Shown: positions 15,301 to 62,793 of the stretch, piece by piece
How the letters are laid out: each line of letters begins with the position of its first letter
Numbering within the stretch: the stretch's first letter is position 1
Origin: Sipunculus nudus
Lineage: Eukaryota > Annelida > Sipuncula > Golfingiida > Sipunculidae
Assembly (NCBI GenBank): GCA_026874595.1
Contig: CM049318.1
Location: 22,853,456 to 22,917,455, forward strand
Length of the DNA stretch: 64,000 bases
Direction of reading: 5' to 3'
Made by a program: the position numbers and the translations under genes
The notes under the pieces: model-generated
Seen by the model: the letters and a program-made list of their open reading frames with translations, nothing else
Told to the model about the DNA's origin: nothing
Database searches by the model: none

Positions 15301-18300
15301 GTAACACTAGGCAGCGGGAAATGTCTAGGGGAATGAATAAAGAAGTCAGTGGTTTTTTGTTAACAAATAACTATAATTTATTCCTAAAACAACCCTAACA
15401 ATACAATACAATAAGTCAATACAATTATACAGTGAAACAGCGGTATAGCAACAAGTCAATACAATACACAGAAAGATAATGGTCCAATACCTGAATACCA
15501 ACAGTGTCATCAAAATAAGTCCTTTGAATGTAAGCTCTCGGAGAATGACAGTCCAGTGGAAAGTTCTTGCAACAACACAGAATGTAAACTGAAGTCCAAT
15601 GTATAAAATCCAGGAAAGTTCTTGAAAAATCTATAATTGCCGCATTCGTCGAATAAAAACATCTTAGAATCTGACACGCTTCTGCGTCCGCTGGTATCTG
15701 CTCTGCTGTCTGCCCCCTGGTTCTAAAAACAGCCCATTATATACCTTCACACCTTCAGCCGGGAACCTTCTACTTCTCGAACATTCTACAAAGAACCCTA
15801 CTCCACAGTAAACAGAATTCTCCAGAAAGACATCGCTGTGTGTCCCTACACACACCAGGCTAATCACGTGACCCACGATCAAGCGTGAAAACTCCAGGCC
15901 CACATAACAACGAGAGTTCAACCAGTACGGAATGAAACAAAAACACGAGTTACGCCCGTGTCACATAATAGAACACCTGTAACAATAGACAACTAAATAC
16001 ATAACATAATGTAGAGTCCTCCCCTTTGGAAGCAGGGGCGTGACCGGAGGGGGAGGGGTTTGGTTGCAGGGGGTTACCCCCAGGCCCCCTCCCCCAGCCC
16101 CCCTCCCCACCCATCACCATCCCTATCTGACTTTCTAAGTGATATTGAGGTTAAACTTACCCAAAGCAGGAAAAATAATGGAAGGAAAATTGTTACGGGG
16201 TGCACATAAAAGCGGACCGAACTTTCTCACTAGTGAAGCTTGCTTTGCTAGCGAAGCGGAATTATAGATGTTCAAAGACTTTCATCTGGATTTTTTGCAT
16301 TTGGACTTTACTTTCTTGGTAGTAGGAACAATTTTCCACTGGACTGTCATTCCCCGAGAGTTCACATTTAAAGGACTTATCGTTGTGATGGTGCTGGTAT
16401 CCAGGCACTGTCCACATACATTATTTTCTCTGTGATTGTATTGACTTGTTGCTGTACCGCTGTTTTACTGAATAATTGTATTGATTTGGTGTATTGTATT
16501 GTTAGGGTTGTTTTAAGAATAAATTATAGTTATTTGTTAACAAAAAACAATGACTTCTTTATTCATTCCCCTAAACATTTCCCGCTGCCTAGCGTTACAG
16601 AATCTGATTTTTTTATCTCTGTTACAGAATTTGTGTTCATCACGCATACGTGATCTGTTTATATTAGGTTCCGTAACATAAAATTGGGGGCTTTCGTCGG
16701 GATGGTTTATAGTTTTCAAATTTATTAGGCCTTGATCTGGACACATTGTTTTATCATACATTGTTTACAAGATTACATATTGTTTACAGTACATTGTTTA
16801 CAGGATTTAACTCAGTGGTTTTTTGTTATTGTTTTGACATCTTAACATGGTAGATTTCAAACCTGAGACATTTGTTGACGATCCGGACCCTGATCAACTT
16901 GAACAGTTGTTGCGTTTGGGGCAACACTTAGGGCTAAGTGTTAAAAAAAGCTTTGAGAAAGCCTGATATCAATGCTAAAATCATGCACGACCTTATTAGC
17001 AAAGGTTTAATTGAAGAGACTGAAGTTGAAACATAAAAAAGACAGCCTTGCTATGCAATTAGAATTGAAAAAGCTGGAAATGCAACATGAGCTAGCATTA
17101 AAACAGTTAGAATTAGAAAAAGAGAGGGAAGAACGGTTAGAAAGAGAAAGACTAGAAAAAGAAATAGAAAGAGAAAGACTAGAAAAAGAAATAGAAAGAC
17201 ACAGACTGGAAAAAAAAAAAGAAAAAGAAATTGAGTTTAAACGACTAGAGTTAGAAAGACTTAAAGTAGAACGTAGTCTAAGTGCTGCCCCAACTCATAA
17301 TTTTAATGTTACTAAACACAATAGACTTGTCCTACCTTTTCAAGAAAAAGAGGTTGATAAATATTTCTTACACTTTGAGAAGGTAGCTGAAAATTTAAAA
17401 TGGCCTCAGGAAAATTGGACTATGCTGTTACAAAGTGTATTGACTGGCAAGGCCAGAGAACTTTATACAGAGCTTTCAGTAGAGGCTGCTGCTGACTATG
17501 ACCTGGTAAAACTGTTAATCCTAAAAGGTTATGAGTTAGTTCCAGAGGCTTACCGCCGGAAATTCAGAAATTGGGAAAAGCGCATAGAACAGACCTACGT
17601 TGAATTTGCTAGGACAAAAGAGCAGTTGTTTGATCGCTGGTGTAGTTCTAAAAATGTAATGAAAGATTATGGCAATTAACGCCAGTTGATTTTGCTTGAA
17701 GAATTTAAGCGCTGCATTAACGCAGATGTTAAAACTTTTCTTGATGAGAAAAGTCCTGAAACACTTGACATTGCTGCTCAATTAGCTGATGATTATTCAT
17801 TGACACACAAAATGTCCTTTACTAGCAAATCAAACAAGTCATTCACAAATAAGAATGTAAAACAGTATGGTCAAAAGAAGTTTACAGCGCAGTCACCCAG
17901 TACTAGTAGTCCTGATAGTTCAGCAAAGCCCATAGCTACACCTCAGTCCACGTCCACTGTGTCTAAGTCCAACAAAGACCAGTCACTTTCAAAGAAAATG
18001 TGTAATTACTGCAAGACGGAAGGCCATCGATTATTTGACTGCTGGAAACTTGCGAATACACCAAATAGCAAACCTTCTGGTTTTGTTTCAAAATCTACGC
18101 ATGGCATAGTACAAGAGCCAGGCTCTTTTCATGTAAATAAGGGGTACAACTCCTTTATTGACGGAGGCCCAAGTGCCGTCTGAATCTAAAGAAGAAGCCG
18201 TAGATTGCGGGGTAAAAACCTCAGTTGATTCCTGCGAGGAATTAAATAAGGCTAGGTCCTTTCAAGACTCCTACGAAGAGTGTTCTCTAAATGAGGCTAA

Positions 18301-20325
18301 GTCCTTTTATGACTCTTGCGAGAGTATTTCAAATGACGCCAGGTCCTCTTATGACAAACAAAAGTTTGTTTCTGCTGAGGAAAATTCCTCCGTTGACTTC
18401 CATGAGGAGTTTGATGATAAAAAGGATGTAGATTCCTTAGATGACTCTGAAACAGAGTTTATGACTGACACTGTCATTGTCAGTTCTTTGTTAGATGAGG
18501 TTGAGGTAGTAGATTCCTCTCCTGACTCTGAAATGGAGTTATTTGAGCCACTCATACATGATGGTTTTGTATCACTTTCGAGTGATTTTTCAGATTCTAC
18601 CCCTATTAGAATTTTGAGGGACACTGGTTCAGGGCAGACTCTCATGTTAGCAAACACTTTGCCATTTTCTAATAGGTCCTTTACTGATGCACATGCACAT
18701 GTTAATGGTGTGTTTTCAGACAGGCACACTTCAGTTTCGCTTCACAGTATCCATTTAAAGTCCGATTTGATTTCTGGGAATATTACTGTGGGCATAAGAA
18801 CTACTTTTCCCTCTAAGCGAATTCAGTTGCTACTAGGCAATGATGTTGCAGGTGATAAATACAGCCTGTACCAATAGTGACAGGAAAGCCTTCACTTGAT
18901 CAGGACACTGATCCGGAAAGTCAGGAAATTCCTGGTTTGTATCCTTTATGTGCTGTAACTAGATCTATGGCCAAGAAAAACACACATTAGGATAATGGTC
19001 CAGATAATAACACTCTGGGATTCACTAGTGACTCGTCTAATGACTCGCCCGTACAGGATGCAGCATTCTCAAGGTCAGAACTTATCGCGGAACAGCATAA
19101 AGACCCTGATATTTCATGTTTGTTTCCCAGGGCAGTTTCTAAAGATGAGCTGACGCAAAACCCAGTTTGTTTCTATGTTAAAAATGGAGTGCTTATGCGT
19201 AAATGGCGACCACTGTATGATGATTGGGCCATCAAACATCAAATAGTAATGCCCAAAAGCTTTCGCAGTCAAGTTCTAAGCATGGCACATGAGGCTCTTT
19301 GACTGGCAATTTAGGTATAAATAAAACTTGTAAGAAAGTTAGTACACACTTCTATTGGCCTAGCCTCAGGAAAGATGTTGTACAATATTGTGAATCATGC
19401 CATACATGCCAGATGTTAGGCAAGCCCAATCAGAATCCTTCTAAGGCCCCACTTAGGCCTATTCCTTCTTTAGAGGAACCATTCAGTAGGATTATTGTTG
19501 ATTGTGTTGGACCATTGCCCAAAACGAAATCTGGATATGAATACTTGCTGACAATTATGTGCGCATCTACCAGGTTCCCTGGGGCAATACCATTGCGCAA
19601 AATTAATGCCAAAAGGGTTGTCATAGCTCTGACCAAATTTTTTTACAACTTTTGGATTACCAAAATCCGTCCAGTCTGACCAAGGGTTAAATTTTATGTC
19701 TGGCTTATTCCAACAAGTTATGCTTGAGCTAGGTATAAACCTGTACAGCTCCACGCCATACTATCCTGAGGGTCAGGGCGCCCTCGAGCGTTTTCACCAG
19801 ACATAAAAAACATGATCAAGACTTATTGCTATGACACACAGAAAGACAAATGAATGAGGGGAAAATCCTGGGACGATCCCGGAGTCGAACCCAGCTCGGG
19901 GGCGAACAAGTCTGGCGTACCAACCGCTTCGCTAGCAAAGCAAGCTTCACTAGCGAGTCAGTTCGGTGCGCATATATGTCACCCCGTAACAAAATTTATT
20001 AGCAAAACATTAAATATATGTGAAGATTCATCACTATACACTTTCATCTGCAACACATCATGTAAAGAGATCAATATCGGGGATATTAGTTCTGAATTGG
20101 TCAAGAGAAGCAAGAATTCATTAACCCCAACTAATGATCAACTAACTTATAGTACAAACTGACTCATTCATCCTATATTTTCATCCACAATCAATTTCAT
20201 TAATGCTCCGGCAACTGCTCTTGTTTTGAGTATTAAACTGGTTACAATAAATTAAAATTCGAAGCTGATTCTGGGCAGAATCTTAAGTGTTCTTAGACTT
20301 CCTTCTCGAATTTTTTTTTTTACAA

Positions 20326-34930: not shown

Positions 34931-35151
34931 TTAAATTTCCTTTCCTGCCCAGTAGCTTCGATCCGTTGCTTCGTCTGTGTATTTATCGATGAGTGATTTG
35001 AGTTTTTGCCAGTCTACTAAAATATGCCAAGGGTCAAGGACGCCGTACCCCTCTCCAGGCAGATACTCCCAGGGGTGGCTACACATGTCAATCAAAACAC
35101 GTCGCATCACTGAGGTTTTCTTTAATTGTCTGTACACAGCTTCATCAATCC
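34931..35151 (-). CDS. Receptor exon 13: module 2 tail and stop
   Basis: GIDEAVYRQLKKTSVMRRVL, then IDMCSHPWEY and VLDPWHILVD, ending in YWAGKEI and TAA. Same tail type as exon 10. Confidence 0.85.
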
Positions 35152-38100
35152 CTGAAATAAATAAAAAAAAAACTATTTATGAATATTCATATATATCTTT
35201 GTCAATCTGTCGTTATTTGATATTATCAGTGTGATCCGTACTCTTGTACGTAACTGGCCCTGACATGGTTTAAGTGGTTATAAAACTAAGCCTCAGCTTT
35301 AATCTTACTTATGCCCGGTTTTTAAATAATATAATGAGATCACTTTTAATATATTAATGTGTTATAAATATTTATTAGAAACAACTTGTTCCAAGTGTTT
35401 TGATATACTTCCGACTGATCACTCAAACGTAAATACGAAGGGATCATATAACAATATGCAAAGGAATATATATTGTCCTGAGTCCTGGAAGTCATTTACA
35501 TTAATGTACTAGTCCAAGTATGTTCATAGTACCATTAAACCTGTAACGGGCTGAATAATGTGGATGGTGCAATATAAAATAAAATTAATTCTGGCCTTCC
35601 ATGTAAAAAAAAATCTTTACTGCATACCCATAATGTTTCTTAACTGCATTTGACATCAAAATAATCGATGTATGATATTAGGAAATAATTTAACCTAAAA
35701 CAAGATATCGAGCTCATTGTTTACATATATACAAACTAATAGAAAATCAGTTAAACTTTAACTTCCTAAAGAGAGGGTCAAGGCTGGTGATATAATCGGC
35801 GTCACGTGACCTCTACTTCTCAATAGCTCTGCCCACGGAGGCACCAGGTATTCCATGATCATATGATCATAAAATTCAAGTTGGGCTAGCATTATATGTT
35901 TTAATCCTTGTATAAGATGCTAAAAAGGTTAATCCTCCATCAAAACGATCAAACTAGAGCGCCCTCCGCTGTTTCAGACAAAAAACAACTTGTAGTTTGT
36001 TGCATGCTGCAACTTTTGTGAAACATTTCATTTCGTTTTCAAGTCTGTCCTTGCACTGTCTCAACATTATAGTTTGATCAAGCGAAGAACTGGTGACAAT
36101 GCACGTATTTGTGAACTTACGCAGATGGCGCTCCAGTTAGATCGTTGATCTTAATAATAACCATATCTAAAGAATAAGAGAACCTTGTGTACGGAACTCC
36201 TGGTAACTTACCATGTGCCTTTGCCAACATAAGAACGAACGCTGTAATAAGAGCGGCATACCAAGGGCCGTAATCCTCAATAGACTGGTCCTCCTCATCA
36301 TCATTTTTCTTTACGGGCACCTCAATGGGCGCCACAAAATCCAACCTCCCACCCGCGGCCATGTAAGGCGCTTCGTCAAGATCGGGCGAAACCACGCCCA
36401 CTCCTATGACGTCAGAGCTCGGGAAGGTGTGACCGGGATTGTCAGGATCATAAAACGCACTAGTTAAGACAACAGAGTTCTTCTTTATTTTGTTAAGAAT
36501 TTCGTGCACCCGACTGGTTGCCAATGGCTGCGCCATATTATCTGTCTGTATCACAATATCCTGGTTTTTATTGGCCACCTGCTCTATGGCTTCCCTGTAT
36601 TCGTCGTGATCTCGGTCGTAATCATCCCATTCGTAGGTAGTTCTTGACTCCTGTATGTATTTTAAGAAATGTTTAGGAGTGTCTCGCAAGTTAACCCCGA
36701 GGACTTTAGCCCAGAACGGCACCAACCATTGTGACCACGTAGATCCCGCCACGATTCTGCTCCCCTCTATCGGGATACCGAATAACCGCGCGTAGAAATG
36801 CATTTTTTCATCAGTTCCAAGCATGACCAACTTGATCATCTTTGCTTTTCCTTTGAGCAATTCTTGTACTTTCGCAAAGTTTGCAGTCCTGCCACTTTTC
36901 ATTACCCCTTGAGCTGTTGACTGAAAAAGCAAGATGGTATATAGTACTATTTACTATCATGCAAATTATTTCTCCTAGCCGTTATTTTACATTGCCAGGG
37001 TAACAGACACAATGCACGCTTCAAAATTACGCAAATACACTTAACATTTTAAAGGATTTTTGTTTTGCGCTGAAACTAAATTTTGCATAGTTGCCTTTTC
37101 CTGTTCTTCCTGTTTTACTCGTTAATTTTACGCTATATTCAGTGTTAAGATAAATATGTTTGTAATTTTGAAGCTGAACGTATGCATTGTATGGATAATG
37201 CATGCTTTTACAAAACAGGGGCAATACAGAGTCAGCAAAAAAAAAAACATGCTTACCTCAGAGTATCGTCTGCTATTCTCACGAATCAAGCAAGACCTTT
37301 CATCCATATTTACACTGTAAGAAATATAAATTTAACATTTTATTATCAGATTAATATTGAGCGTCTACATAAGGATTTAGGAAAAGAAGGGGTCAAAATT
37401 AAAAGTACTTATGACAAAACCTAAAATTCTGGAAGAGGCTGCCAAAATTGGTCTAAAACCCTTTAAATAGGGTTATGGCGGTCGTAAAAAAAAGAGGGGG
37501 GGGGGGGGGGGGGGGGTCCGGACCCACTGGATACCTACTGGGTCCGCTTTTTGACATATGTAATGTCAAACCAGTGTTGTACCCCTTATTTCATTGAGCT
37601 TTGTGGTGACATTTCTGTTAAAAACCGAAAGTTCAAGGATTAGCTGTATATAAATTCGACAGTCAAAACACATTTTGTGTACCTAAGGCTAAACAAATAA
37701 CATATACCGGTAACACGGTATGACAGCTATTTAACAGGTTCTAGAAATTGCATAGAATTGATAGCCCTTTTTACTTTGAGTGTCTTTTCCTAATACTTTG
37801 CATTATTAAATTTGCCTGATTGGCAAGTCAAATTATACATTATTTTCTGTTGTAAACTTTTTTTTTTATCTTGTTCGTATGCCGGTATAGCATTACATAT
37901 ATAACTTACAGTTTGTATTAAAATGCCCCCGTTTTACACGCAATATAAAATTTTAATGCGGGATTTGCTTGCCTTTACCTTTGACTTAGGTGGTCTTCCG
38001 TTAGCTTTCTGATTTTATCAGGGTCTGCTGGTATTTCTTTTAGTCTCAGATGACCAAAGCCATCTGTCACGTGATGTTCATTTGGTGACGTGCAAAGGTC

Positions 38101-41100
38101 AATCAGTACTCTTCTCATGACATGAGACGACTTTAAAGAATCTAAGGCAATCCCATCTGTAATAAGTCAAAGAAAGTATTCCAGATGACACACACAGTGA
38201 CCCGAGCACTAGAAATAAGGTAATAGGCAAAATTAAGTGAATACATCTATGTTACATGAACAGTAGGGCTAAGTGTATCCTTTATATTGTTTTCTCTCTT
38301 CCTCTCCTTCCGTCTCTCTCAAATGATTTCGGGGTGTAAAACACTTCATAATGGAAAAAAAAATCTAAGGTCGCCATCTGTATTCCATTGCAAAGTTCAA
38401 TCATATCTAAAGATTATAAAGACTTTTTTTCAGATTTTTTTATGGAATCAACTGACCTACAAAGTTTGCTCCTAGCAAGATGGCCGCGGCGGCTGCCATG
38501 GCGCCAGCTCCCGCCAGTTGGTTAGAATCATATTCCTCCTCGTTCTCTATGGTGTTATCCAACATGAGATCTTCAAGCTGTAAGACAAAGTCCAACAGAC
38601 CTCCACAGGCTGTTCCGGGGTCTGTGTCGGCGTGGATGCTCCCAGAACCAACCGCTATCGAGGACTGAGCCAAACGTGCCATGTCGTAAAACGGTGACGG
38701 CACGGTTGCTGTGGTGATTACGACACATTTTGCCATCAAACGATGCAACTTTTCCTCAAAATCTACGTAATCATCAACAGGCTGCATGACTTGTACAGGA
38801 AGATACACTACGCTGACGTCACTTTCCAGGAAATAATCCAAAGCTTTCTCCAAAACCGGCTCACCAATCACCTCCCCTGGAACCACAACGTGTTCAATAG
38901 CGACGGTTTTGATTATCTTCCCCGTTGCATTTTGTATATTCATGATTGTATTAGTAAGTTGTTTTGAGAGGAACTCTATGATGAGTTTGGACCATTTACA
39001 ATCCGTTTCCAGTGCCCCGGCTGCCAGCATATTGTTCTGAATAACCTTGATCTTCTTATAGGGCAGTTTCTCTGTGACACACGGTGGAGCAAGGAAGGCA
39101 ATGTTGGCCTTGGCTGCTCCTACATTCATCAGCGGAAGCGTATCTTCAACTACGTTCAGATTTCTGTAACAGCAGTGATAAAAGATAAAATTACAAATGA
39201 ATTATTTTTATTGGGTTATATATATACAATTTGACTATATTGTAAATATGGAACGTTCACTTTACATTTATAATATCAATAGTAATAAATTATAACTTGA
39301 CGTTTCATATGTGCCTGGTAAGGAAATTATAACTTTTTTCAGTTTGACTTAAAACTGCTTTTCTATATTGTTCAATAAAACTTTACAAAATGGATCGTAT
39401 TTTATCATGTAAAAGTCGGCGTAAAACTTAAAAGGTATTCCTAAGAGTACTGACAACGTTAAGCCATATGATCTGTTCATTGATCCTTGCTTAGACGACC
39501 ACCTCGAACATGTGGCAACTTTATTGAGGTCCTGTTAGTGGTCGTTAATCTCAGTTTTAACTGAACATAAAATAAACTATAACTTACCTTTTCTGCGTGG
39601 CCGCCCTTCGGCGACGTACAATAACTCCAGCGATGACAACTACAATGACAGCAATAGCGCCAACAGCGAGTGCCACCTGGAACCCGATCGTCTGGTGAAA
39701 CGGCGTCCCTAATACGATAAGACAACAGTCTATCAAAGTATGTGTTCCACATTAAACAGTTAGAATGTAGTTATAAAGAACATTAAAATGAAACGCATCT
39801 CATTTTGTTGGTTCTCAGGCTAACCTTGTAATATGTGCAGAATAATCCTGTCATAGATGAAATATTACATGATTTTCTATAAAGTGTAGCAAGGGCCTTC
39901 AATCAGAAGAAAATGTGATAATTCCAGGAAGCTCATGACAACATTTTGGCTGGTCAAATAGGCACTTGGTGCGTCCCAAACATGGGGGGGGGGGGGTGAC
40001 CAATGTCGAAACTAAAGGTGTTGTGTCTACATGATTTCTTTCTTATTTTACATTATGTTATCAGATATGATCAATATGTCATTATATAATTATTTAATCC
40101 GAGTGAAAACTAAGGGTTTGTTGTCAGCACAGTGTTTACACAAATAACTAGTATCTGACTCTGCTATTTGTACTCATATAGTTCCATCTTGCATATAAAA
40201 GATACAGCAAGTCTCTCTGACTAAGTAAAATGAACACAGAGACATAATCCTTTAATATTTAGGAACAAAACATTAAATCAAAATGGTTCCATATATCTTT
40301 GCCGGCTGTATTACAAACTATGTATTTTAATTGCTTTGCTTGCAGACACGCTGGCATATTCCCCTGGCAATTTACAGACGTGTATTATCTATTAATGGAC
40401 TATATATTTATTTTATTACTGATAGCTATATAGCGTGCTCGGGATTAATTAGCCGGATGAAACCGAAAGTGTAATTACCTTCCTTTCCGTCTTTTCCCGG
40501 GTCGGGCTCATCAACTGGACCTGGAAAATGTACATTTACCACTTGATAATTCAATATTCATTGCCAACATGTATTGTCTACCAAAGGCAGCTTTGAAAAT
40601 ATTAAATAATATCCGCCCATACAGGTCGGATCTGTATAATCTATATATGAATATCTGTTTAAATCGTAGTTTTTTAAGAAACACAAATGCAAACGGGGGG
40701 GGGGGGGGGGGTGAGTGGTGGGGGTATAGTTATACCTTCTCGTCTCCATACTATCAAGCCTGTTGTAACTGCGCTTTTAGAGACCTTTATTCGTTGAGCC
40801 GCTTTGGCGTCTATTTTGTAATAAAGACCAAAGCAAGTAGGCCAATCAAATGACTGTCGAACGTCTTGACCGAACGTTTTAGAACAAACGTTCAGCAACG
40901 AGAATGTGACCACTAGAATACAGCCATATAAACCTCTCCCCTTTCCGGTCCATGTGTATTTATTCCGGAGGCGTAGGAACAGTGCATTATTAAGATTTGA
41001 TTCATCGGTTTTGATTGACAGTTGTAATTACGGCACGAACACTTGCAGGCTTGATCAATCAAGGTTCGTGAAAGCATAGCTGCCACAGACTTGAACGTAT

Positions 41101-44100
41101 ATGAAGAATCACCGTCATCTTCAGTCCATAAGGAAGATTCTTTAGTGTAAGTTTAATTATGTTAGATTTTATAGTGTAAGGTTAATTATGTTAGATTTTA
41201 TAGTGTAAGGTTAATTATGTTATGATGAGCCAGTTTGTATCTCATTAAAATTGATTATTACATTAACTTGATTAAATATCGTATTAATTTCACAAGATAT
41301 TTGTTAAATTATATACTAGTTCGCATAAAATACAATGGAATTACTTGAAATATATGGGACAGTGTGTAATTATATTCGTATATCCGAAGATCGTAGAATC
41401 CTGAGACGGACTTACCTGCAGCGAAGGATACTGGTCCCTTTGCGTCACCTGCGATCACATAGAAAACATAGTTGAGTTGCTACACTTTGAATAAAACATA
41501 GAAAAAAAAACATATTTCTCACTAAAAACATAAGAACCTGTTAAATAGACAGAGAAAACATGTTAAGGAACTTCAGATTGTGGGGAAATTACGTTGCATT
41601 GCCTAACATATCGGAATAAAGAAAAAAATGTTGCATGCTTCTGAGCTCGTTCAATTATCTGTTGAAAATTTAAAGTGTCGTTTTTCGATGTATTCGCAGT
41701 CCACTTTTAGAATTATTTGAAATTATTAAATCAAACCCTCCCGAACTGCAAACATAATTCACCCTAATTAGCAATAACATATCTTATGGACCACTGGTCA
41801 CCTGAATATAACCTAAGAATTCTGTGAATCTGGGACAACCGTTCAGTGATTCTACATAACCTAATTTGCGGAGTAATTAAATGATTCGTCTTGGAGCTGC
41901 TACATGAAATCCTAGATGATAAATAGAATTATTTTTTTTGTAATTTTAGTATAAAATAATATAAGGATAAAGGAATGTACGGATTTTGATAAAATTTTGT
42001 CCCAGGTTAAGGTAACAGCCATGGAACAATAAGTTGGGGTTTTGAGTTAACCTGGACCATCCAAAAAAAATTTCATTCCAAGGATCATATAATATTTTCA
42101 CATACGGCTTTTCTTTGTCCGAGTCGAGAGCATCATCCATTAGTGGACGTCAACAGGGTCTTTGTTCTAGAGATAACATGTGCTGGAGTTTTTTAGCTGG
42201 GACAAAATTGTGTACTTGGGAACCTGGCGTGGCGTCAATATATAGGAGAGCTCTAATTACAAACCTAGGGTGTTTTTTTATTATTTTTGTGCGTGCATTT
42301 ATTTATCATAAATTATGAGCTGCCGAATTATCTATGATAATGTATTAAACATGCCTTTTTCTGAGGACCCTTTTTTTATTTTTCTCTGGTCTTCCTTGGT
42401 TGTTTCCCGTCCCTTTTCACAAAATCATAGTTATGAAAACGGGGATTCAACTGAACCATCTGTTTATTCATTTTACAATTTCTTTATTATGCTTCTACTC
42501 ACTTTTCTGACAGATGACACCACGAGTGTCCTCACACCGGGTGGCCTTCCACCTGATCCCATCTGTGTGCAGGTGGGCAGCCGAGCAGTCGGGTCCTGCA
42601 GATGGTTCACCGGGAAACCACTGATCCTTTGTCACTGTGCGCGGTTCTAGAAGAATAAAATTATGAAATATAAGAATATAACCGACTTCTCCGGTCTAGA
42701 GGTAGAGCGAAAGGCTCTGTATGCTTAATGGGGTGACTGTACCAATCTATCGTATTTCAATAATAAACGAGTGCGCCTCCCGGGAGTTCCTCGGTGTTAA
42801 ACACCCAGGACCCGCAGGTGTCTGGTTGACACAAGGGCAATCATGTGTTTCCGCACTGGCACGAAGTCTTCAACACGCATTCTGCTGATGGATATAGTAG
42901 CTGGTTAAAACGGCAGTTATAAATGGAGGCAGCTACCCCCTCAAGCATATATTTAACAAAAATATATATTAACAGATGCTCTAGACTAATTATTCCATTC
43001 GTTGGTACTTTACCTTGTCCTGCATTTCACGTCTGTATTACATTAACTGTAAACAGTCTGCTGTGCTTTTTGTCTAACATGTTCGGTTTATACGTGACTG
43101 AGTATAATGCGACAGCTTTAGTAAGTTCCGAAAAAAGAGTAGCATATACCTTGTACTAGTATAACGTAAGTTTACTTTAAAACTTGAAGAAACCTTGTAA
43201 TGCGGAATACATTGAAACCTATGTAATAAGACCACCTGGATACTGGCCACGAGCGTTCTTAATTTACAGGAAATCTGACTAAATAGGTCAGTTTTAACCA
43301 GTGTGAAGGCCTTCGCTTTACTAAAGGGCGGTCTTAACAAAAAAGTTGTCTTATTGGAGGAGTGGTCTTTCAAGAAGGTTCCGCTTTATCGTTTTAATTT
43401 AAGTACCATAAGGTGCCCAGGAATGACTTCACATTTTGTAAGTAAAACCTGTTTGACACTCAGTAGGCAGATCATTTGTATAAATATTAATCCAGCAGAG
43501 TTACATATTCCTCACGAACTTTACTTACTATTTCCATTGTGCACCCACTGTTCTTTTACGAGGCCGACCCAGTAGTACCGGCAGGGGGCGCTAGTCAGGT
43601 TTGTCCCTCCAAACGCATTAACCTTCTCGTCACTGTCCAGCACAGCTAGACTTGCTCCCTGCTTCCGGCATATCTCCCGAGCGGGGAACAAGTCGCCCAC
43701 AGCGCAAGTCAAGGAGTAGGTTGTCTCTTCTACGGTGAAACATGGCGACTGACCAGCAGTATCGGGACACTTCATTGTACCTGTTGATAAAAATATAGGA
43801 TGTGCCAATGTCTGTTAGCCTCCATTTATTATGTACTGTTTCATTTTCTTACCACTTTAAATCCAGATATTCCAGGCTTTGTTGAAAGTATCATTAGTTC
43901 CCCGTGAAAGATAATGTAGTGGTTCATGTTGATAGATACAGACTGTGTACTGGGGCTGTATATATAACGATACTATATCTAACGATACAATATGTCTCTC
44001 GATATTTTAACGCCGATTCGAGACACCAACCGATACATTCATACAAATACCGTAATATTAAAGTTAAGATTCAGGTCGTGCATACAGAAAGATATATATA

Positions 44101-44761
44101 CCTCTTCTACTACAATTTATTTCTGAAACCACAAAAATCATTTCGAATTAATAAGTAAAACCTTAAGCAGAGACACACATACATTAATAAATGATCACTC
44201 TGTACTGATGCATGTATTGTTCGCCTTGCCGTTGCCGCTTCAGTTATTATTTATAATGTACCTCGGTAATCAAAGTTATAGGATATACATGGCCGAAAAA
44301 CGAGAAATATATTGGTGCTTGGTCTTTGATGTCCTTTCTTAATAATTTCTCATTGTGATTAAATATCAGTCACACAGGAGCAATATTGACGCTTCTTAGC
44401 ATTCCCATGCAATAAGTTATCTCATGCAATACGTTAGGTGCAGATAACCTGTATATTGTAACCCTAGGGATCAGATTATTATAGCCGCACGGCACGGATG
44501 CGGATAATAAATATGTGGCTATTAAACCTAGATAGATTATCAGTATTGAGCGCAGATTGAGATGTACCAGCGATTAAACGGAAGGTGGGCTGACTTTCTG
44601 TAGCCATGTACTCTTTCGTAGGCTCAAAGCCACATGTACAGTGTACACAGAGTACCAACAGTACAAACAAGAGTCAAGATAAAAGATGGGGGGGAACGTT
44701 GGCCTACTGTTCACCAAGTAGAGGTTTTGGAGATTTGAGCGATCCTAATTAAAGAATAAAA

Positions 44762-44796
<35 letters not shown>

Positions 44797-47700
44797 CATA
44801 TATATATATATGTATATACTCATATATTATAATAATAATGTTGAATATAATAGAGTCAGCAGTATCTCCTTTACAGACAATTAATAATCTACTTGTGTAT
44901 ATAATTATTAATCTCCTTGTATCATCCTATCAAGCTACGAAACACCGACCACCCCCTCCCCTACCCTCTAAAGGCACCTTCACATAGGGCTGCCACCTTT
45001 GTGCCACCTATGAGCGACCGAAAAATATGACCGGGTCGCTGAATGGTCGCCTAACGCAGAAAATCCTGTTTCTGTGTAACTGCTCGTTAACCGTTTCAGC
45101 GATACTTGTGCCTCCCCCGAACCTCCTAAAACGCGGCATTAGGTCATTTTTATGCCTGCCTTCCCTCTGCTTCCCAACAGCCACAACAATGCTTGTGCCT
45201 CCCCTCTGCCTCCTTTGAGCTACCTTTGAGAAATCCTCGGCGACCTTTGTGCGATTGTCTTGAACATGTTCAAAAATCCATGGCGTCCATGGCGATGTCT
45301 GAAACTCCTGTGTACCACCTTTGTACGACCTTGGCAACCATTCTGCCTTCTTTGAGCCTCCTACTACGACCTAGTAAACTTTGTGGTTGCACACGGGAGG
45401 TAAAAGGTCGTTATTTTGTGTAAAGGCCCCTTAAATGTTTCACTGACATATGAGGGATATAAGCTGTCCCTCTTGATTTGCCTGTGTAATTAAACACAAT
45501 TAAACGGAGATACAATATTTTTATCGGGAAAATGTGTTTAACCATGATAAGCATATATGTCTCGGATGTTCCAAGCGTCATAAAAGAATGTCAATCTGGC
45601 ATGCACCCAAGCACTTGTTTCTTGTGCATCAACAAGATTACACCATTTTTTTTTGTGATCAGATAACATATTTTGAATTATCTGCATGATTATGCCTTTA
45701 CATCTTGTCTGTCTGTTTGTATCCTGTGTACAATAAGTGAAACAAGAATAAACATGTTAAATTCAGACCAGTCTCAATGCTTAGAAAAGCGATTCAAATA
45801 TTGGAGCAGATCCGAACCCAAGATTTTATTATTTAGATACCTAAGTTACGTTAGAATTATACCAACCACTTATACTCACACCGAGGAGAGAGAGTGGGTA
45901 ATTCTTAGAGAGGCACCGTCAGGTAATGAAACCTTCGTAGGTCTTTGAATTTCTAAATCTATGGCATAAACGATGGTGGTGCCATTGTACTTTTGTCACG
46001 CAACTGTTTGTAGCCACACCATGATCTTGGGCTGTCGGATTCGATCCCAGTGTGTCCTTAGGGGGTTATTTTCCATATTTCCCCATAAATCCTGAGATTT
46101 TCCCTTTTATTTCTGTGCGCCACCCATCAAGAACTACGTGAACTGCATAAGAACGATTTATATACTATTTCAGTAGAAGTAAAAAGAACAAAATAACAAA
46201 AAAATCGTCGATGTTGTTTGTTGAGGTATGAACTGCAGTTACCTGGATGCTGGCATACGACACCTCGAGGTTCCTCTGCTCCACAAGGGAGGGCGTGGAT
46301 TGTCAGGTTGGTTGATATGGCTCCCCCACAAGCTTCGCTGTCCGCGCTCACAGGTCTAGTAGCTAGGCATAACAAAATGACAATAGGGTTTACAAGAACT
46401 CTTTTAAATGAGACTTATAAGTGCACTTTCTTAAAGCCTATACCTTGTATAAAAGCATCATGATTTAGTATGAATACCATTTGGTGACTAGTATTTATGA
46501 AATTCTTCGATTTATGATATTTCCCTTTATACATGTCGATGTTGTATGAGTCTTACTTTCATATTGTAAATACGTTCATAAAATTTCATTTAATTTTATT
46601 TAAAACACGCTTTACTTTTGCTTTGGAAACATACATGAGTATTTCCTCATGGGACTGATTTTGAACGTTTATACAATTTACCTTTAAAGTATACAATAGT
46701 ATATATGAACTAACTTTACCATACGTTTAACAGCTATATTTCAATGTACATATACTGAAAAACAATCCCATAGGATAGCCATAGAAAACCCCGTTAAGGC
46801 GTACAGAATAGCCTGACCAAAATAAAACCGAAGTCACCACACAGCTTGGCCATATAAATACCTAACTGATTATAGCTTTTACAGAGTAATACCTAAGTAC
46901 GTATAGCCTTTCAAGAATAATACCCAAGTAAATATAACCTGGGGGATGTAATTATAGCCTGTCCAGAATAATACTCAAGTAACTATTACCTGGACAGTTG
47001 TAATTTTAGCGTGTCCAGAATAATACCCAAGTAACTATAACCTGGGCAAATGTAATTGTTGACAGCCCAAGTAACTATATCCTGGGCAGATGTAATTGTA
47101 CCCTGTCCAGAATAATACTCATGTCACCATAACACAGGCAGATATAATTGTGGCCTGTCCGGAATAATTCTCAGTAACTATAACCTGGACAGATGTAACT
47201 GTAACCTGTCCAGAATAATACCCAAGTCACTATAACATAGGCAGATATAATTGTGGCCTGTCCAGAATAATACTTAAGTCACTATAACATAAGCAGATAT
47301 AATTGTAACCTGTCCGGAATAATACCCAAGTAACAATAACATAGGCAGATGTAATTGTAGCCTGACCTGTGGTATTTAAACTCTTTATAAACATCATTAA
47401 GGCTTTGACCTACTGGCTGCTCCATTCCTCCAGGCCCACTCTTTCAAACTCTGTCTTTGAAGACTCATCCATGTGGACTTCACGTTATTTTCCCGCATGT
47501 ACTCCGCCAGGGCGTCGCCATCTGTCTCGTCGTTAGGAAGATGATGTTCCGGTCCCAGGTGCTTGCAATATTCTGTCGCCGCTTGGTATGTCTTATCTTC
47601 TGAACCATAGCGGACTACAGCTCCCGCTGTACATATACAAGTTAAAGTTCAACATTTTACAAACTTTTGAAACATGTAATAAGTAATAATGAAGGTTTTG

Positions 47701-48045
47701 CAAAGAATGTTCCTGAAAGGAAGCTACGAGAGCATAATTGACTTAAGAGCCCGTTGGGAGAAACAGTGATATTTTACTATTTAGCTATCTATTTACTTAG
47801 CAAAAACTTTGAGCTTTACTAACACTGAGCTAACAACAACAACACACACACACACACATATTAAATGTGTGTGTGTCCTAAGTGGGAGTGAACCACCTTA
47901 AAAAGTAATCAGTGTAACTTTAATGGGCCTGTAATAAGACAATGACAACTCATGATGAAATAATTGTTTTAAATTATGGTTTTCTAATATACCACACAAG
48001 CTAGTTGTACCGGAATCTATAAAGGATGTTCTAGATTCCCAACCG

Positions 48046-48102
<57 letters not shown>

Positions 48103-48816
48103 AATCGAAAACCTGGTCGAATATCAGTTTGCGATTAAAGGGACATAATCAGGAGCAATATTATACCTATTCTTTTACATTATCAGTTCAGTTTTGCTTT
48201 ATACAAAAGTTTACCAGCAATATCATCCCAGTACACAGTATCAGTAACTGTTTAACACCTTGTTATGGCGATGCGTGTTTAAAAACACAGTCCACGTGTG
48301 TTTGTTTACCATAACAAGGCCGCTTGACCGAAGGTCCGATTATGAGCCGAAACACACGAAGTTTCAGCCAGCGGGAACATGTAAAACATTTGGGGCAAAG
48401 TCAGTCAGGGCATCTCGTGATTGGCAGGTGTTGTGGCTCAGCGATGCACAGATTCACACGCGCTACGTTTATGTTGAAACCTTTGATCGCGCCCGGTCCA
48501 CTGCGTTTTACACTCGTTGACAGGAGTAAGCAAACGGTTCCAGAGCAATGTTTTGACAGGTAAATATTTACTTTAGAGGAAAGAAGCTATTTTTTGTGTT
48601 AATTCAACATGCTTTATAGGTGATTGGGTTCCTTTAATATTTTGTGTGCAAATGCTGTAAGCAAATATGTGTATGTTTGTGTGTGTATGCATGAGAGTGA
48701 GTGAAAGAGAGAGAGAGTATATAATCTTGAAACTGTTCGAACCAAAATAACACTAGTTTGCAATTAATATTGGTGTACAAATGCTGTCAGCAAAGTGTTT
48801 CCATGTTAAGACAAGA

Positions 48817-48864
<48 letters not shown>

Positions 48865-49973
48865 CAAATTATATATCATATGTGTATGTGCTACAATAAA
48901 AACAACTCATGAGGCCAGGTAATAATCCTTTATATACAACTGTCCTCCCACCTAAAATTTCACTGCACAAGATCTACATTATAACAATATATAGACCATT
49001 ATCATAACGAGTGAATAAGTCGGCTGCCGTCTAGATAAGCAAGACCACTCAAGATAAAGTGACTGGGTGTACACTAGTGTGACAACGAGCAGCGGTTCGG
49101 TGTCCGTGATATGATCGTCGTACCAAAGCAAGGCCGACAGTAAACAATTCAAAGTTATAATATATCAGGACTGCCAATTGTAAACGATTTCAAAATTCGT
49201 TCCCCCCAAATCAGAGCGCTCGGAGGGAGAAACTTTTCTGGTAAGAGCCGGGGTTAAATATACATACAATAAAACCTCATTCAGGTGTGACCCGTTCCCG
49301 AGCTAAAATCTCCTAATGCCAGAAGTTGGGTCCTTGTATGTTACCGTTCGTATATTGCGGATTTAGGAACAGGGACCATGGACGTCTGAGCTCTTCATCC
49401 ACGTCGTGGTATTTAATGATGATTGATGGTTTCAAACCAAATTTTGCAACCCGGTACCATCTTTTAAATTATTGAGGGATTTATTAAGGATTTCTCATAT
49501 GTCTTCCTATAGGTTCCCCCCCCCCCAAAATTTTCAATAAATACAATAATTCCTACCTCAATTTCCCTCTTTCGTTTGCCAAAATGGATCCCTACGTATT
49601 TACAACCCAGACTGAAATAATGTATGTGCAATTTAAATGTTCCTGCTATTATATGATTGTGCATGTCTCAGCAAAACGGAAAAATTCGTCATTGATATAT
49701 CTGTTACTCTTTCGAACAAGTACCTGAAGTTGAGGCGCATCGTTCCTTGAGAGCAGCTCTAGGGTTCAATCTGAGACCGTGATTTCATACTCTCAGTTAC
49801 GGGGTGTGAGTGTTTTGAAAACGTCTATATCAATGTGCACAATTGATAATTACTGGAGGGGGGGGGGGATATGTCGAACCTTGATGTTGAAATTTGTAAG
49901 GTAGTAAACTGATCTTACCTGCAAGAGTTATTAATATTCCAAAAAGTATTCCCAGTTTTAAGCAAGGTTCCAT
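34931..49973 (-). CDS. Lectin-type membrane receptor with two cytoplasmic subtilisin-fold pseudoenzyme modules
   Basis: Complete gene of 13 exons: 49919-49973, 47410-47626, 46243-46355, 43529-43780, 42503-42646, 41416-41448, 40479-40520, 39588-39708, 38457-39163, 37979-38156, 37257-37314, 36212-36920 and 34931-35151. All introns are GT-AG, phases agree throughout, and the total is 2850 nt (949 aa). Layout: signal peptide 1-18; C-type lectin-like domains about 19-128 and 129-260; linker 261-290; TM helix about 294-316 then RRRR; module 1 at 326-561 with tail 562-620; linker 621-640; module 2 at 641-876 with tail 877-949. The modules resemble the C-terminal half of peptidase S8 (VIGVGVV, LDFVAP, a helix like GTSMAAP-xVAG), but the Ser position is Trp or Gly and no Asp/His site is seen. 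Function unknown; inferred surface recognition linked to an intracellular scaffold or signalling module. A paralogue lies upstream at 60478-63883. Confidence 0.85.
36212..36920 (-). CDS. Receptor exon 12: subtilisin-fold-like module 2
   Basis: 709-nt exon, 236 aa. Motifs: NQDIVIQTDNMAQP (place of DVINMSLG), SVVLTSAFYDPDNPG (place of AAAGN), FPSSDVIGVGVVSP, GGRLDFVAPIEVP and GPWYAALITAFVLMLA, where Trp replaces the nucleophile Ser. An acidic insert (DDEEDQSIED) precedes the last helix. The reading frame runs on past the donor (GTAAGT at 36206-36211), but the paralogue and the phases support splicing here. Confidence 0.85.
37257..37314 (-). CDS. Receptor exon 11: inter-module linker
   Basis: 58 nt encoding VNMDERSCLIRENSRRYSE. 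Phase 2 to 0, identical to the corresponding exon 61988-62033 of the paralogue. Donor GTAAGC. Confidence 0.75.
37490..37517. repeat. Poly-G run
   Basis: GAGG followed by more than 20 consecutive G in receptor intron 10. Confidence 0.9.
37979..38156 (-). CDS. Receptor exon 10: module 1 tail
   Basis: DGIALDSLKSSHVMRRVLID then LCTSPNEHH. The MRRVLIDLC core recurs in the tails of module 2 and of the paralogue. Phase 1 in, phase 2 out. Confidence 0.8.
38457..39163 (-). CDS. Receptor exon 9: subtilisin-fold-like module 1
   Basis: Single 707-nt exon. Recognisable S8-like order: YFLESDVSVVYLPVQ, CVVITTATVPSPF (place of the oxyanion region), SSIAVGSGS, GGLLDFV and GAGAMAAAAAILLGA (place of GTSMAAP). 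The catalytic Ser position appears as Gly or Ala. Phase 2 in, phase 1 out (donor GTCAGT). Confidence 0.8.
39588..39708 (-). CDS. Receptor exon 8: transmembrane helix
   Basis: VALAVGAIAVIVVVIAGVIV followed by RRRRAATQKR: one membrane-spanning helix with a basic cytoplasmic anchor, giving a type I topology after the signal peptide. Ends in phase 2 at GTAAGT. Confidence 0.88.
40479..40520 (-). CDS. Receptor exon 7: extracellular linker
   Basis: 42 nt encoding GPVDEPDPGKDGKE, Pro/Asp/Gly-rich and probably flexible. Phase 1 to 1; donor GTAATT. Confidence 0.7.
41145..41225. repeat. 29-bp repeat, three copies
   Basis: agtgtaaggttaattatgtt plus agattttat repeated in tandem, in intron sequence. Confidence 0.85.
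41416..41448 (-). CDS. Receptor exon 6: extracellular linker
   Basis: 33 nt encoding SDAKGPVSFAA, flanked by consensus sites (acceptor atcgcag, donor GTAAGT). Called because its phase (1 to 1) joins its neighbours without a stop. Confidence 0.7.
42503..42646 (-). CDS. Receptor exon 5: lectin-like domain 2, C-terminal part
   Basis: QWFPGEPSAGPDCSAAHL, then RCEDTRGVICQK. GEPS replaces the GEPN sugar-site motif and WND is absent. The closing Cys pattern is intact. Donor GTGAGT. Confidence 0.9.
42681..42890 (+). repeat. tRNA-related SINE-like copy
   Basis: ggtctagaggtagagcg resembles a tRNA D-arm/A-box. The body (gttcctcggtgttaaacacc, caggacccgcaggtg) matches the copy at 52905-53290. Lies in receptor intron 4. 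Confidence 0.55.
43529..43780 (-). CDS. Receptor exon 4: lectin-like domain 2, N-terminal part
   Basis: MKCPDTAGQSPCFTVEE, AREICRKQGASLAVLDSDEK and YYWVGLVKEQWVHNGN are classic long-form C-type lectin features (extra N-terminal Cys pair, WVGL). A potential N-glycosylation site NLT is present. Phase 1 in, phase 1 out. Confidence 0.9.
44764..44815. repeat. (CA)n/(TA)n microsatellite
   Basis: CA repeats passing into TA repeats. Confidence 0.9.
44967..45435. mobile_element. Possible MITE with imperfect terminal inverted repeats
   Basis: The left end aaaggcaccttcacatag and the inverted right end aaggggcctttacacaa are similar. The interior is GC-richer than the flanks and has no long open frame. 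The type cannot be fixed from the ends alone. Confidence 0.45.
46243..46355 (-). CDS. Receptor exon 3: lectin-like domain 1, C-terminal part
   Basis: ACGGAISTNLTIHALPCGAE then GVVCQ supplies the last three Cys of the fold. No EPN/QPD or WND calcium-site motif, so calcium-dependent sugar binding is doubtful. Phase 2 in, phase 1 out (donor GTAACT). Confidence 0.8.
46840..47375. repeat. About 52-bp minisatellite, about nine copies
   Basis: Unit words: ataatacccaagtaactata, cctgggcagatgtaattgta, gcctgtccaga. It fills much of receptor intron 2. Confidence 0.9.
47410..47626 (-). CDS. Receptor exon 2: lectin-like domain 1, N-terminal part
   Basis: Contains ATEYCKHLG, TWMSLQRQS (the WIGL position of C-type lectin folds) and EWAWRNGAAS. 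First canonical Cys present. Acceptor gtacag, donor AG|GTCAAA in phase 2. Confidence 0.8.
48042..48863. repeat. Two (GA)n microsatellites in receptor intron 1
   Basis: GA tracts at about 48042-48099 and 48818-48863. The sequence between them shows only unsupported short open frames. Confidence 0.9.
49919..49973 (-). CDS. Receptor exon 1: signal peptide
   Basis: MEPCLKLGILFGILITLA: a basic residue then a hydrophobic core, cut expected near the exon end. The donor GTAAGA leaves one base that completes an Ala codon. An acceptor-like TTTTGCAG directly before the ATG suggests a separate 5' UTR exon further right. Confidence 0.8.
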
Positions 49974-60477: not shown

Positions 60478-60671
60478 CTAAACTGAGGTACTTATAGAAG
60501 TACTTTGCGTGTATTTGTTGATGAGTTCTTCACAGGCATCCTTATCTGATAATGTGTCCCATGGATTAAGGAGTAATACCTTCTTCTTTCGAGTTTTTGT
60601 TTGATCACAAAGATCTGTCAGAACTCCATGCATAATCCCTGTTGACCTAAGACGTCGGTATCGTGCATCAT
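60478..60671 (-). CDS. Paralogue terminal exon: module tail
   Basis: DARYRRLRSTGIMHGVLTDL then CDQTKTRKKKVLLLNPWDT, ending KYTQSTSISTSV and TAG (60478-60480). Acceptor tcctacag. Confidence 0.8.
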
Positions 60672-62793
60672 CTGTAGGAATAAGACATATGTTTATAAAA
60701 CAGTCGTTTATAAGTCCAATAACAAGTACAGGTGCTACGTGATATTATGTTTAAAGTACTAATAAAAGTAGTAATGATTTTATTTTTATTTTGATCAGGA
60801 TTATATACGTGTGTATTTGTATACGTGTGTAAACGACAAAAATCTAACGAGGTGCTTAACTCTTAGTTACTTACATTTATTTATATACAATAGGCCTTCA
60901 AGAAATTCGAATAAATAGTTAGTAACCGTAATTTCTTTATTATGATTTCCATATTTAGTAGTTATTGTATGAGCTACTTTGCATAGACGTCCCAGAGAGG
61001 AAAACCCTTGAAATTTATCAGAACCTCAACAGACCCCATCAGAAATAGTAAAAAGGAGCCGGGCGTATTAATAAAGACAACAGTATCCATTGAACAAGGT
61101 GTTTTCAAGTCTTAGAATAGTGTCGAACAAGTCGTATTATAAGTTAATTATAAAATATCAGTTTACTCACATTTACTTCCTGCATACATAAGTACAATGG
61201 CAGACACCAGAGCAGCAAACCACGAGCCTACTTCCCTGAACACTTTACCAGATGGACCGCTTATTGTGTCGACGGGCGCATAAAGCGCTGCAACATCTGT
61301 CTTCTTCTGATTTAAATCAGGTAAAATTCCGACACTAATGGCGGTCTGACATCTGTTTTGCTTGGACATGGTTTTTCGGTCAGCGGTAAAGACTGTGCAA
61401 GAATTGACAAGTTCTGTCCATGGTTCGCTTCCGAGTATCTCTCCTTCTTTTGGGAAATCAATAATTATAACAATATCTGGAATTTTCTTCTTGATTTGTT
61501 TTATCCTCTCCAAAAAATATTTATGATTATCTGAAGCTGAATTGTCAAATGTGTTCCACGTGGAGTTGATGAAATCTAAAACGTTGAGTTTTAGATTACC
61601 AGGATTAATATTTAATATTCGTTGGAACAGTTCATTGTGAAATCTTATGCCAGATCCTATTCTAAGTTCCTCTTCATAAACTTGTTTTGTCTGAGTAGAA
61701 GACAAGACCTGGAGGTGTATGTATGTTCCACCCACATTAAGCCTTGTCCTTTTTAAATTATTCTCTATGTCACTGTATATCTCAGCAGACTCGGCTGTTT
61801 CCTATAACAGAACACATGGCTAATATGATAAATCAATTAACCACACAATAACACCTCAATCATAACTAGCAAACTCAGTATTTGATAAATATATCAAAAA
61901 GCATTATTAAATTACAAAATTGAATCATATTTTGGAAAGTAGGAAGTGTGTGAAATATAAACATTATCATACGCCAATATAACCAACCTCTTTTCCAGCT
62001 TCCGTCCCATTTAAAGCTTGTTGATCAGCATATCTGGAAGTGAAACGTAATATAAGCGTAGTTGTACGCACAGACCCGTCCAACATATTGTCATGAATAC
62101 GATATCCACTTAATTGGACCACTCTCTGTTATATGAAATTGGGCATTCCTCTTATTTGAAATGTTTATAACTAATACACACTATCTACCACTTTTTAGTT
62201 GTCAGAAGTAAATTAAACGAACTCCCAAAGGCCGTCTCACCTGTGACGCGGAATGATGCTTGACTGTTCAGCATTGCATTCAGGAATCGTCCACGGGTCC
62301 CTCTCGGCGGGCATAGTGATTATAATTGCGGTATCTTCCAGATGTATCGTCTGACTGTAAAAGAAACATTTCATATTTTACCAGGCAGGACCATCGTTGA
62401 ACTGTGTGCAAATAAGCTAGTTATTACCTTTGCCGCTATAGAATGCAGGTTTACAAATTTGGATCGTGTTGCTATTTTATTAAATAGCTAGGTCTGGTGC
62501 CACATTATTTTTAATAAACCAACATACGTTGGAAAATAAGATCAATGCAAAATGAATACTAGTATTTGTTCTATAAATTCTACCAGTGACTCTTGATTAT
62601 GGGATATGTTCTGTATTGGGTCTCTATGTATAATGGCATTTGCTCTTAATAAGTGTCACCTGTCACCAGGGCTAAAATCCCGATTAAAAGTTTGAGGGTT
62701 CGATTATAGACACTATAAGATTACACATACTTTTATTTGTTCAATTTTTTTTACTTATTCTGTTGATACTTATTTGCAGAGTAACAATGATGA

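Follow-up and report, generated by a model that had tools for sequence, protein, structure and literature searches.

What a lectin-like membrane receptor might do with two subtilase domains inside the cell is the question raised by a gene predicted on the minus strand (positions 34931-49973) of a 64,000-nucleotide stretch of the Sipunculus nudus genome (GenBank assembly GCA_026874595.1, contig CM049318.1, positions 22853456-22917455), referred to as the window. Subtilases (peptidase S8) are normally secreted or processing enzymes. The earlier note on this stretch, made from the letters alone, had proposed a receptor with a signal peptide, two C-type lectin-like domains (CTLDs), a transmembrane (TM) helix and two cytoplasmic modules with a dead protease fold. 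According to our analysis, the gene would encode a type I receptor with degenerate CTLDs outside and tandem dead subtilases inside, and we consider it probable, though well short of certain, that its task lies in innate immunity or in self/non-self recognition. The window lies on contig C13 of the searched genome (1.43 Gb in 153 contigs), and loci elsewhere are labelled by contig and position in Mb (M).

The gene model consists of 13 exons, all bordered by GT/AG and agreeing in phase, and its reading frame is unbroken over 950 codons from the ATG at 49973 to the TAA at 34931. The exon chain had been put forward in this form before, together with a length of 949 residues that we have to correct. 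The sole doubtful junction is that of exons 2 and 3. Here, the donor of exon 2 at 47414 (phase 1) equals in place and phase the donor predicted at three paralogous loci, and the acceptor matching it makes exon 3 begin at 46362; because of this agreement with the paralogs and the matching acceptor, 950 residues replace the 949-residue splice. The paralog of exon 3 at C13:21.64M reads VCAGVSTVSQNIQPKSCNYGSNLEGVVCQH and the window gene reads ACGGAISTNLTIHALPCGAEEPRGVVCQH; in both, C, G, ST, C and GVVCQH succeed one another at similar distances. We take this comparison of paralogs as settling the predicted length.

Exon 1 (49919-49973, donor GTAAGA) contributes the ATG and a putative signal peptide (MEPCLKLGILFGILITLA) with a hydropathy of up to 2.28 over 19 residues. 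CTLD 1 is made up of exon 2 (47414-47626; Pfam Lectin_C 24.3 bits, above the cut-off) and of exon 3 (46243-46362), a short second half without the W..GEP loop that was placed by phase, acceptor and one paralog, while CTLD 2 comprises exon 4 (43529-43780; Lectin_C 22.6 bits, equal to the cut-off, with homologous exons at three paralogous loci) and exon 5 (42503-42646; 16.6 bits alone, under the cut-off). Two short exons, 6 (41416-41448) and 7 (40479-40520), which with the intron between them occupy 40479-41448 and are supported by phases and GT/AG borders, form a short extracellular stalk, and exon 8 (39588-39708) encodes a TM helix followed by RRRR. When the ectodomain was joined, in the 949-residue splice, it matched Pfam Lectin_C (PF00059) in two stretches with 65.8 bits vs. 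a cut-off of 22.6. Over the whole protein, two strong 19-residue hydropathy peaks are found, one at the N-terminus (2.28) and one at the TM stretch (3.13, residues 298-317); lesser peaks in module 1 (1.79) and module 2 (1.47) both fall on the buried S8 helix that follows the catalytic serine. The proposed signal peptide, outward-facing lectin-like domains and TM helix are thereby borne out, and with CTLDs outside a TM helix the protein has the layout of a C-type lectin-like receptor. As the positive charges of RRRR stand directly C-terminal of the TM stretch, the modules should face the cytoplasm. Sugar-binding C-type lectins carry EPN/QPD and WND motifs, and these calcium-dependent sugar-binding motifs are not present in the window CTLDs. 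Since CTLD 2 has EPS and WKA at the respective positions and CTLD 1 is short and lacks the loop, normal calcium-dependent sugar binding by these domains appears unlikely.

Behind the TM helix, exons 9 plus 10 and exons 12 plus 13 constitute two copies of one unit, about 295 and 309 residues in length. The main part of module 1 (M1) lies in exon 9 (38457-39163), with a 33% identical paralog at C13:56.15M, and its C-terminal part in exon 10 (37979-38156; MRRVLIDLC..GFG), which shares 31-44% identity with other C-terminal exons in the family along stretches of 30-52 residues. A linker encoded by exon 11 (37257-37314), again supported by phases and GT/AG borders, leads to module 2 (M2) with its main part in exon 12 (36212-36920; paralogs at C13:56.15M and on C16) and its C-terminal part in exon 13 (34931-35151), which ends with WAGKEI and the stop codon. 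Exon 13 shows 46-60% identity to 11 paralogous exons in alignments that reach the end of the latter, WAGKD(I/M) being terminal in 10 of them, while an end of this type is not shared by four more distant paralogous exons. Both main exons were assigned to a dead S8 domain on the basis of a family profile and HHalign. The modules are longer than a single large exon, because each main exon (9, 12) is completed by the next one (10, 13). Of the previous description as C-terminal halves of peptidase S8 with about 235 residues, the kinship with S8 has thus been retained and the half-domain has not: the predicted family relationship extends over almost the entire S8 domain.

A profile of 10 modules from the family had 67 matches in the PDB with E-values up to 10, and all 60 that were listed are subtilases, many of them variants of a few subtilisins. 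The best match was subtilisin DY (E 3.3e-4), with profile positions 15-241 on chain positions 22-253. In HHalign comparisons with five S8 proteins, two from the same genome and three bacterial, all modules together scored 97.8% (239 aligned columns), the C16 modules 98.6%, the C13-only set 95.6%, module 2 93.8% and module 1 59.3%; with the three bacterial proteins the values were 93.0, 97.4, 54.9, 55.5 and 0.6%, respectively, and controls with reversed S8 and with CTLD alignments gave 0.06-1.95%. Module 1, on the other hand, scored 94.9% with module 2 and 95.5% with the C16 modules, and as its direct score is weak and these kinship scores are high, it appears tied to S8 mainly via its kinship with the other modules. 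High S8 scores for both modules had been named as the result that would lend support; they were obtained for the family and for module 2, and module 1 alone remained weak. One C16 paralog, the best dead paralog tested, reached 20.6 bits (E 3e-4) with Pfam S8 (PF00082), just under the cut-off of 21.8. Profile A5, with an E-value of 1.6e-18 to subtilisin DY, served for mapping only and is barred as evidence because two genuine S8 sequences are contained in it. On the whole, the assignment of the modules to the S8 fold is supported by profiles and paralogs. Other Pfam matches on exons or window modules, among them CdiI_ImmP (E 0.07-0.09), were sub-threshold and were disregarded.

In an alignment with the five S8 proteins, the equivalents of D32, H64, the oxyanion Asn and S221 are all lost from both window modules; two alignments differ by two residues around H64, and neither has a His there. 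With the triad and oxyanion residues gone, the modules are predicted pseudoproteases, relatives of S8 rather than members of the enzyme family, in agreement with the dead protease fold suspected before. The C16 copies and the copy at C16:27.5M retain only a Ser at the S221 position (NATS, NAAS). The same genome contains further S8 domains above the Pfam cut-off, clustered at C13:28.8-29.0M, C13:34.1-34.3M, C17:37.0-37.6M and C15:53.0-53.1M and mostly contained within one open frame of ~280-310 residues. Of these, the exons at C13:34.10M and C17:37.63M were read, and both carry the complete set DSG, GHGT, ASN and SGTS. These two, with triads intact, may be living relatives of the dead modules. 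The donor behind the S8 exon at C13:34.10M agrees in phase, and approximately in place, with the donor of the module exons. The dead modules may thus have been derived from a family of S8 genes with introns, members of which the genome still contains.

Whole-genome protein searches located module homologues at 18 other places, namely on C13 (21.565, 21.630, 23.145, 23.231, 56.148-56.155, 56.193, 56.248-56.252 and 56.262 Mb), C16 (27.53, 48.94, 48.99, 49.25, 49.33 and 49.39 Mb) and C11 (67.914, 67.928, 68.017 and 68.041-68.050 Mb); two short module fragments at C16:2.60M and C11:14.91M were excluded from the counts. A second family gene is situated in the window itself, with open frames on the minus strand for a main module exon (61163-61801), which aligns with the family and has a weak match to the family hidden Markov model (HMM; E 0.024), and for a C-terminal module exon (60478-60744; C-terminal-exon HMM, E 7.8e-10). 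The C-terminal end of this gene departs from the WAGKDI that is common in the family, and the 5' part would fall past the window end. The closest relatives of the window modules in this genome are about one third identical over the main exons. Sister copies at C11:68041686-68042466 and C16:49.390M have a module exon interrupted by an in-frame stop or a break in the frame, which we regard as a sign of copy birth and death in the arrays.

Lectin and module HMMs revealed same-strand lectin exons upstream of modules at C13:21.63M, 56.19M and 56.26M, and a single lectin exon, used to search the genome with 150 matches scored of 548 candidates, added C13:21.56M and C16:27.53M as lectin-plus-module loci. 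Outside the CARD clusters described below there are 11 module loci, i.e., the C13 loci listed above, the window gene (22.888), the second window gene (22.914) and C16:27.529, and six of these have a lectin exon on the same strand within 12 kb upstream, including the module at 21.565, which is itself a weak match (E 0.013). The nearest lectin exon is 27 kb from the 56.248 module and 39 kb from the 23.145 module. Taken together, the searches show a recurring family of predicted lectin-like receptors with two apparently dead cytoplasmic subtilase domains. The proposed order of two CTLDs, TM helix and two dead S8-fold modules was therefore upheld, as the lectin-plus-module combination recurs at other loci and the profiles show no rival fold.

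The 150 scored lectin matches lie on C12, C9, C17 and C13, many of them clustered (C9:42.4-43.1M, C12:20.7-21.0M), which suggests a very large receptor family. One member of the lectin-exon family, at C12:20803801-20812800, has other downstream exons that look ZU5/UPA-like by eye, without Pfam support, and perhaps the lectin receptors have several kinds of cytoplasmic part.

The same module pair is encountered in a second context, the arrangement of which was read at one C16 and one C11 locus. At C16:48.98M, the order is first the exons MAGAAGSEEENWKTLLMKHRVELLTTMKFKNTLFWDFLMQYGVVSKEQYLFQ and DNTDLDMGRYLLDLIGFKPQYEGFLRALRDSGQVHVADMLKG, next an M1-type module with its C-terminal exon, and then M2. 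At C11:68.05M, two half-domains joined by eye match Pfam CARD with 27.9 bits (cut-off 23.9, E 2.3e-6), and both modules follow; since the M2 exon is spread over two frames, this copy may be broken. The C16 exons are called CARD because they are 53% identical to the C11 CARD (E 1e-36). A further locus, C11:68.02M, has the same two CARD half-domains with a broken frame, plus M1. Over the 60 kb read from the C11 cluster, no lectin exon turned up. The apparently dead tandem subtilase pair is accordingly found behind a predicted lectin ectodomain with TM helix as well as behind a CARD without an ectodomain seen. CARD proteins act mainly in immunity and cell death signalling, and the CARD-M1-M2 sisters provide the first hint of immune signalling from an independent source.

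Five tandem M2 main exons on C16, one of them with an in-frame stop, are 80-85% identical in pairwise comparison and have pairwise ratios of nonsynonymous to synonymous substitution rates (dN/dS) of 0.57-1.00. We mapped 141 codons to subtilisin numbering via conserved anchors and compared them with 28 positions that line the substrate cleft of subtilisin, 27 of which were mappable. Cleft-equivalent positions were variable in 19 of 27 cases vs. 28 of 114 for the others (Fisher 1.3e-5), and the proportion of nonsynonymous differences (pN) amounted to 0.266 in the cleft vs. 0.070 elsewhere, a value that 20,000 random draws of 27 mapped positions never reached. When the two loops noticed first were omitted, cleft pN was reached by none of 5,000 random sets. 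Without the broken copy, 16 of 27 vs. 27 of 114 positions were variable (p 5e-4), with 0 of 20,000 random sets reaching the cleft value, or 6 of 5,000 when the two loops were left out as well. A circular-shift test on positions with at least three residues in four copies yielded one equally good result among 140 other shifts. These data show fast replacement in the predicted groove of the C16 copies and do no more than suggest positive selection there.

From these observations the following mode of action can be proposed. Binding of an extracellular ligand would cluster the receptor; M1 and M2 would act as binding modules, the former substrate cleft of which grips a peptide or partner protein without cutting it; the receptor would share a pathway with the CARD-M1-M2 proteins, possibly through contact between modules, and CARD assembly would then set off signalling of the NF-kB type or death signalling. 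That the modules bind rather than cut, belong to one pathway with the CARD proteins and have a role in defence or recognition is what we infer. The more far-reaching notion that the old cleft of a dead subtilase serves as a hypervariable binding groove, in a non-catalytic module common to membrane and cytosolic sensors, is tentative and in our opinion rather doubtful. Dead-subtilase receptor tails, together with CARD sisters whose cleft changes fast, would represent a new class of intracellular recognition modules in animals without antibodies, and, should the groove reading hold as well, a protease domain would have been turned into a recognition domain in this animal lineage.

A number of results weigh against the proposed recognition receptor with dead subtilase domains. 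With regard to the fold, the window modules alone have no match to Pfam S8 (cut-off 21.8 bits), the module 1 sequences alone are weak in HHalign (59.3% with the five S8 proteins, 0.6% with the bacterial three) and the C13-only set drops to 54.9% with the latter; a phmmer search with one C16 module returned no subtilisin, the matches being a creatininase (E 0.47) and a phage protein, both taken as chance, and AlphaFold, given exon 9 as a single sequence, yielded a model with a pLDDT of 36.6 that was set aside. At five of the 11 module loci no lectin exon was found within 12 kb upstream in the flanks that the search covered. The C16 version of the CARD has no Pfam match at E 10, and Pfam finds no CARD (PF00619), TIR, kinase, death-fold or other known signalling domain in the window protein. 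The cleft result stems from the CARD paralogs and not from the window gene, the list of cleft positions was fixed after the clustering had been noticed, and the ratio of pN to the proportion of synonymous differences (pN/pS), 2.0 in the cleft vs. 0.67 elsewhere, was matched or exceeded by 1,745 of 20,000 random sets and is not significant because synonymous changes are few.

Among other explanations, the one that survives best likewise assumes a real receptor with dead subtilases but assigns it to cell-cell or gamete recognition, development or trafficking, with M1-M2 as a scaffold. The window protein without any match to TIR, kinase or death-fold domains and without an immunoreceptor tyrosine-based activation motif (ITAM) seen by eye would suit such a function, as would a CTLD 2 that lacks the sugar-binder motifs, and self-recognition is another task that large tandem lectin families can have. 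Sister genes with the same module pair behind a CARD speak for a role in defence instead, and the fast replacement in the cleft of these sisters fits an arms race. We judge the non-defence function to be unlikely, though a serious contender. Considerably less credible is decay of the window copy into a pseudogene, for which the short CTLD 1, the suboptimal exon 2 donor GTAGGT and the stops or frame breaks in some sister copies could be adduced; 950 codons in 13 exons without stop or frameshift, otherwise good splice sites and a conserved C-terminal end render it improbable. A false join of a lectin receptor gene with an adjoining, separate gene for an intracellular module would be compatible with an exon chain predicted here from the DNA sequence and with the five loci devoid of a nearby lectin exon; exons may have been missed there, as 150 of 548 candidates were scored. 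It is at odds with phases that close over 13 exons, the TM exon 8 meeting exon 9 with a matching split codon, and with the order of lectin and then module on the same strand at six of 11 loci, given that a chance lectin match is expected in ~0.06% of such 12-kb stretches (a rough figure from 150 matches in 1.43 Gb; the loci may be duplicates and thus not independent), so that we give it very little credence. Active proteases with a non-standard catalytic set, e.g., of the sedolisin (S53) type with its Ser-Glu-Asp triad, are suggested by the serine at the S221 position in the C16 and C16:27.5M copies (NATS, NAAS) and can hardly be reconciled with window modules that have no equivalents of this serine, of D32, of H64 or of the oxyanion Asn. 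Pfam gives no match to S53 in the window protein, and inspection of the S8 alignment by eye showed neither the S53 triad spacing nor the E-x3-D plus oxyanion-D pattern.

Apart from the two family genes, the window contains zinc-knuckle-like and integrase-like frames at 17011-19679 on the plus strand that by eye resemble remains of a gypsy-type retroelement, a frame at 7193-7510 on the minus strand that by eye is like part of a FAD-linked protein of the gulonolactone oxidase type, and long minisatellite arrays at 3602-5165 and 8944-11188 with units of 36 and 55 bases, in which some open frames mimic repetitive proteins. Elsewhere in the genome, a CARD occurs with equal or near-equal scores at 51 places, in open frames that measure 230 residues except for one of 201, e.g., at C1:77762706-77784598 and C5:167862-184826, and within ~25 kb these places are surrounded by more CARD frames (275 and 422 residues) and by C-type lectin frames of about 360-440 residues. 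This has the appearance of a large mobile or virus-like element, present in high copy number and equipped with immune-type domains; 13 of the 150 scored lectin matches sit in its long frames.

Pseudoproteases are usually regarded as regulators of active relatives. The family profile matches almost all of the peptidase S8 domain (PF00082) itself and is collinear with it between the first strand and the GxG motif at the end, whereas the window modules lack the catalytic D, H, N and S and would be placed in tandem in the cytoplasm, on a TM receptor. Among the matches listed in our literature search, no animal protein combining CTLD and S8 or CARD and S8 is described in titles and abstract openings, most subscription journals lying outside its coverage. 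In Clostridioides difficile, the subtilisin-like pseudoproteases CspC and CspA take part in the detection of signals and not in cutting (PMC6636752). With these the modules would share a non-catalytic signalling role; on the other hand, CspC and CspA are soluble bacterial spore proteins acting as germinant sensor or signalling node, and the abstract names no lectin, TM helix or CARD (PMC6636752). Fungal NOD-like receptors (NLRs) with an N-terminal Peptidase S8 domain, where it is entered as a serine protease carried by a NOD-type receptor, provide a case of S8 as a module in a family of intracellular recognition receptors (PMC4986451). The Sipunculus modules differ from the domain described there in being apparently dead, and neither NACHT nor NB-ARC was found by Pfam in the window protein. 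CspC and the S8-bearing fungal NLRs are the nearest precedents found, and neither shows the present layout as far as the available portions of these sources go.

Myeloid C-type lectin receptors use ITAM/Syk. They differ from the window gene, in which no ITAM was seen and the inferred link is the shared dead-subtilase pair; in signalling to CARD9 they resemble it as membrane lectin receptors with, in the case of Sipunculus, a suspected downstream CARD partner (PMC4820464). Receptor-like TRADD-N proteins of bivalves, finally, have other domains, and "subtilisin" has 0 occurrences in the main text of the report; they resemble the family described here in their lineage-specific expansions and in the use of unusual intracellular adaptor domains by marine invertebrates (PMC8195603).

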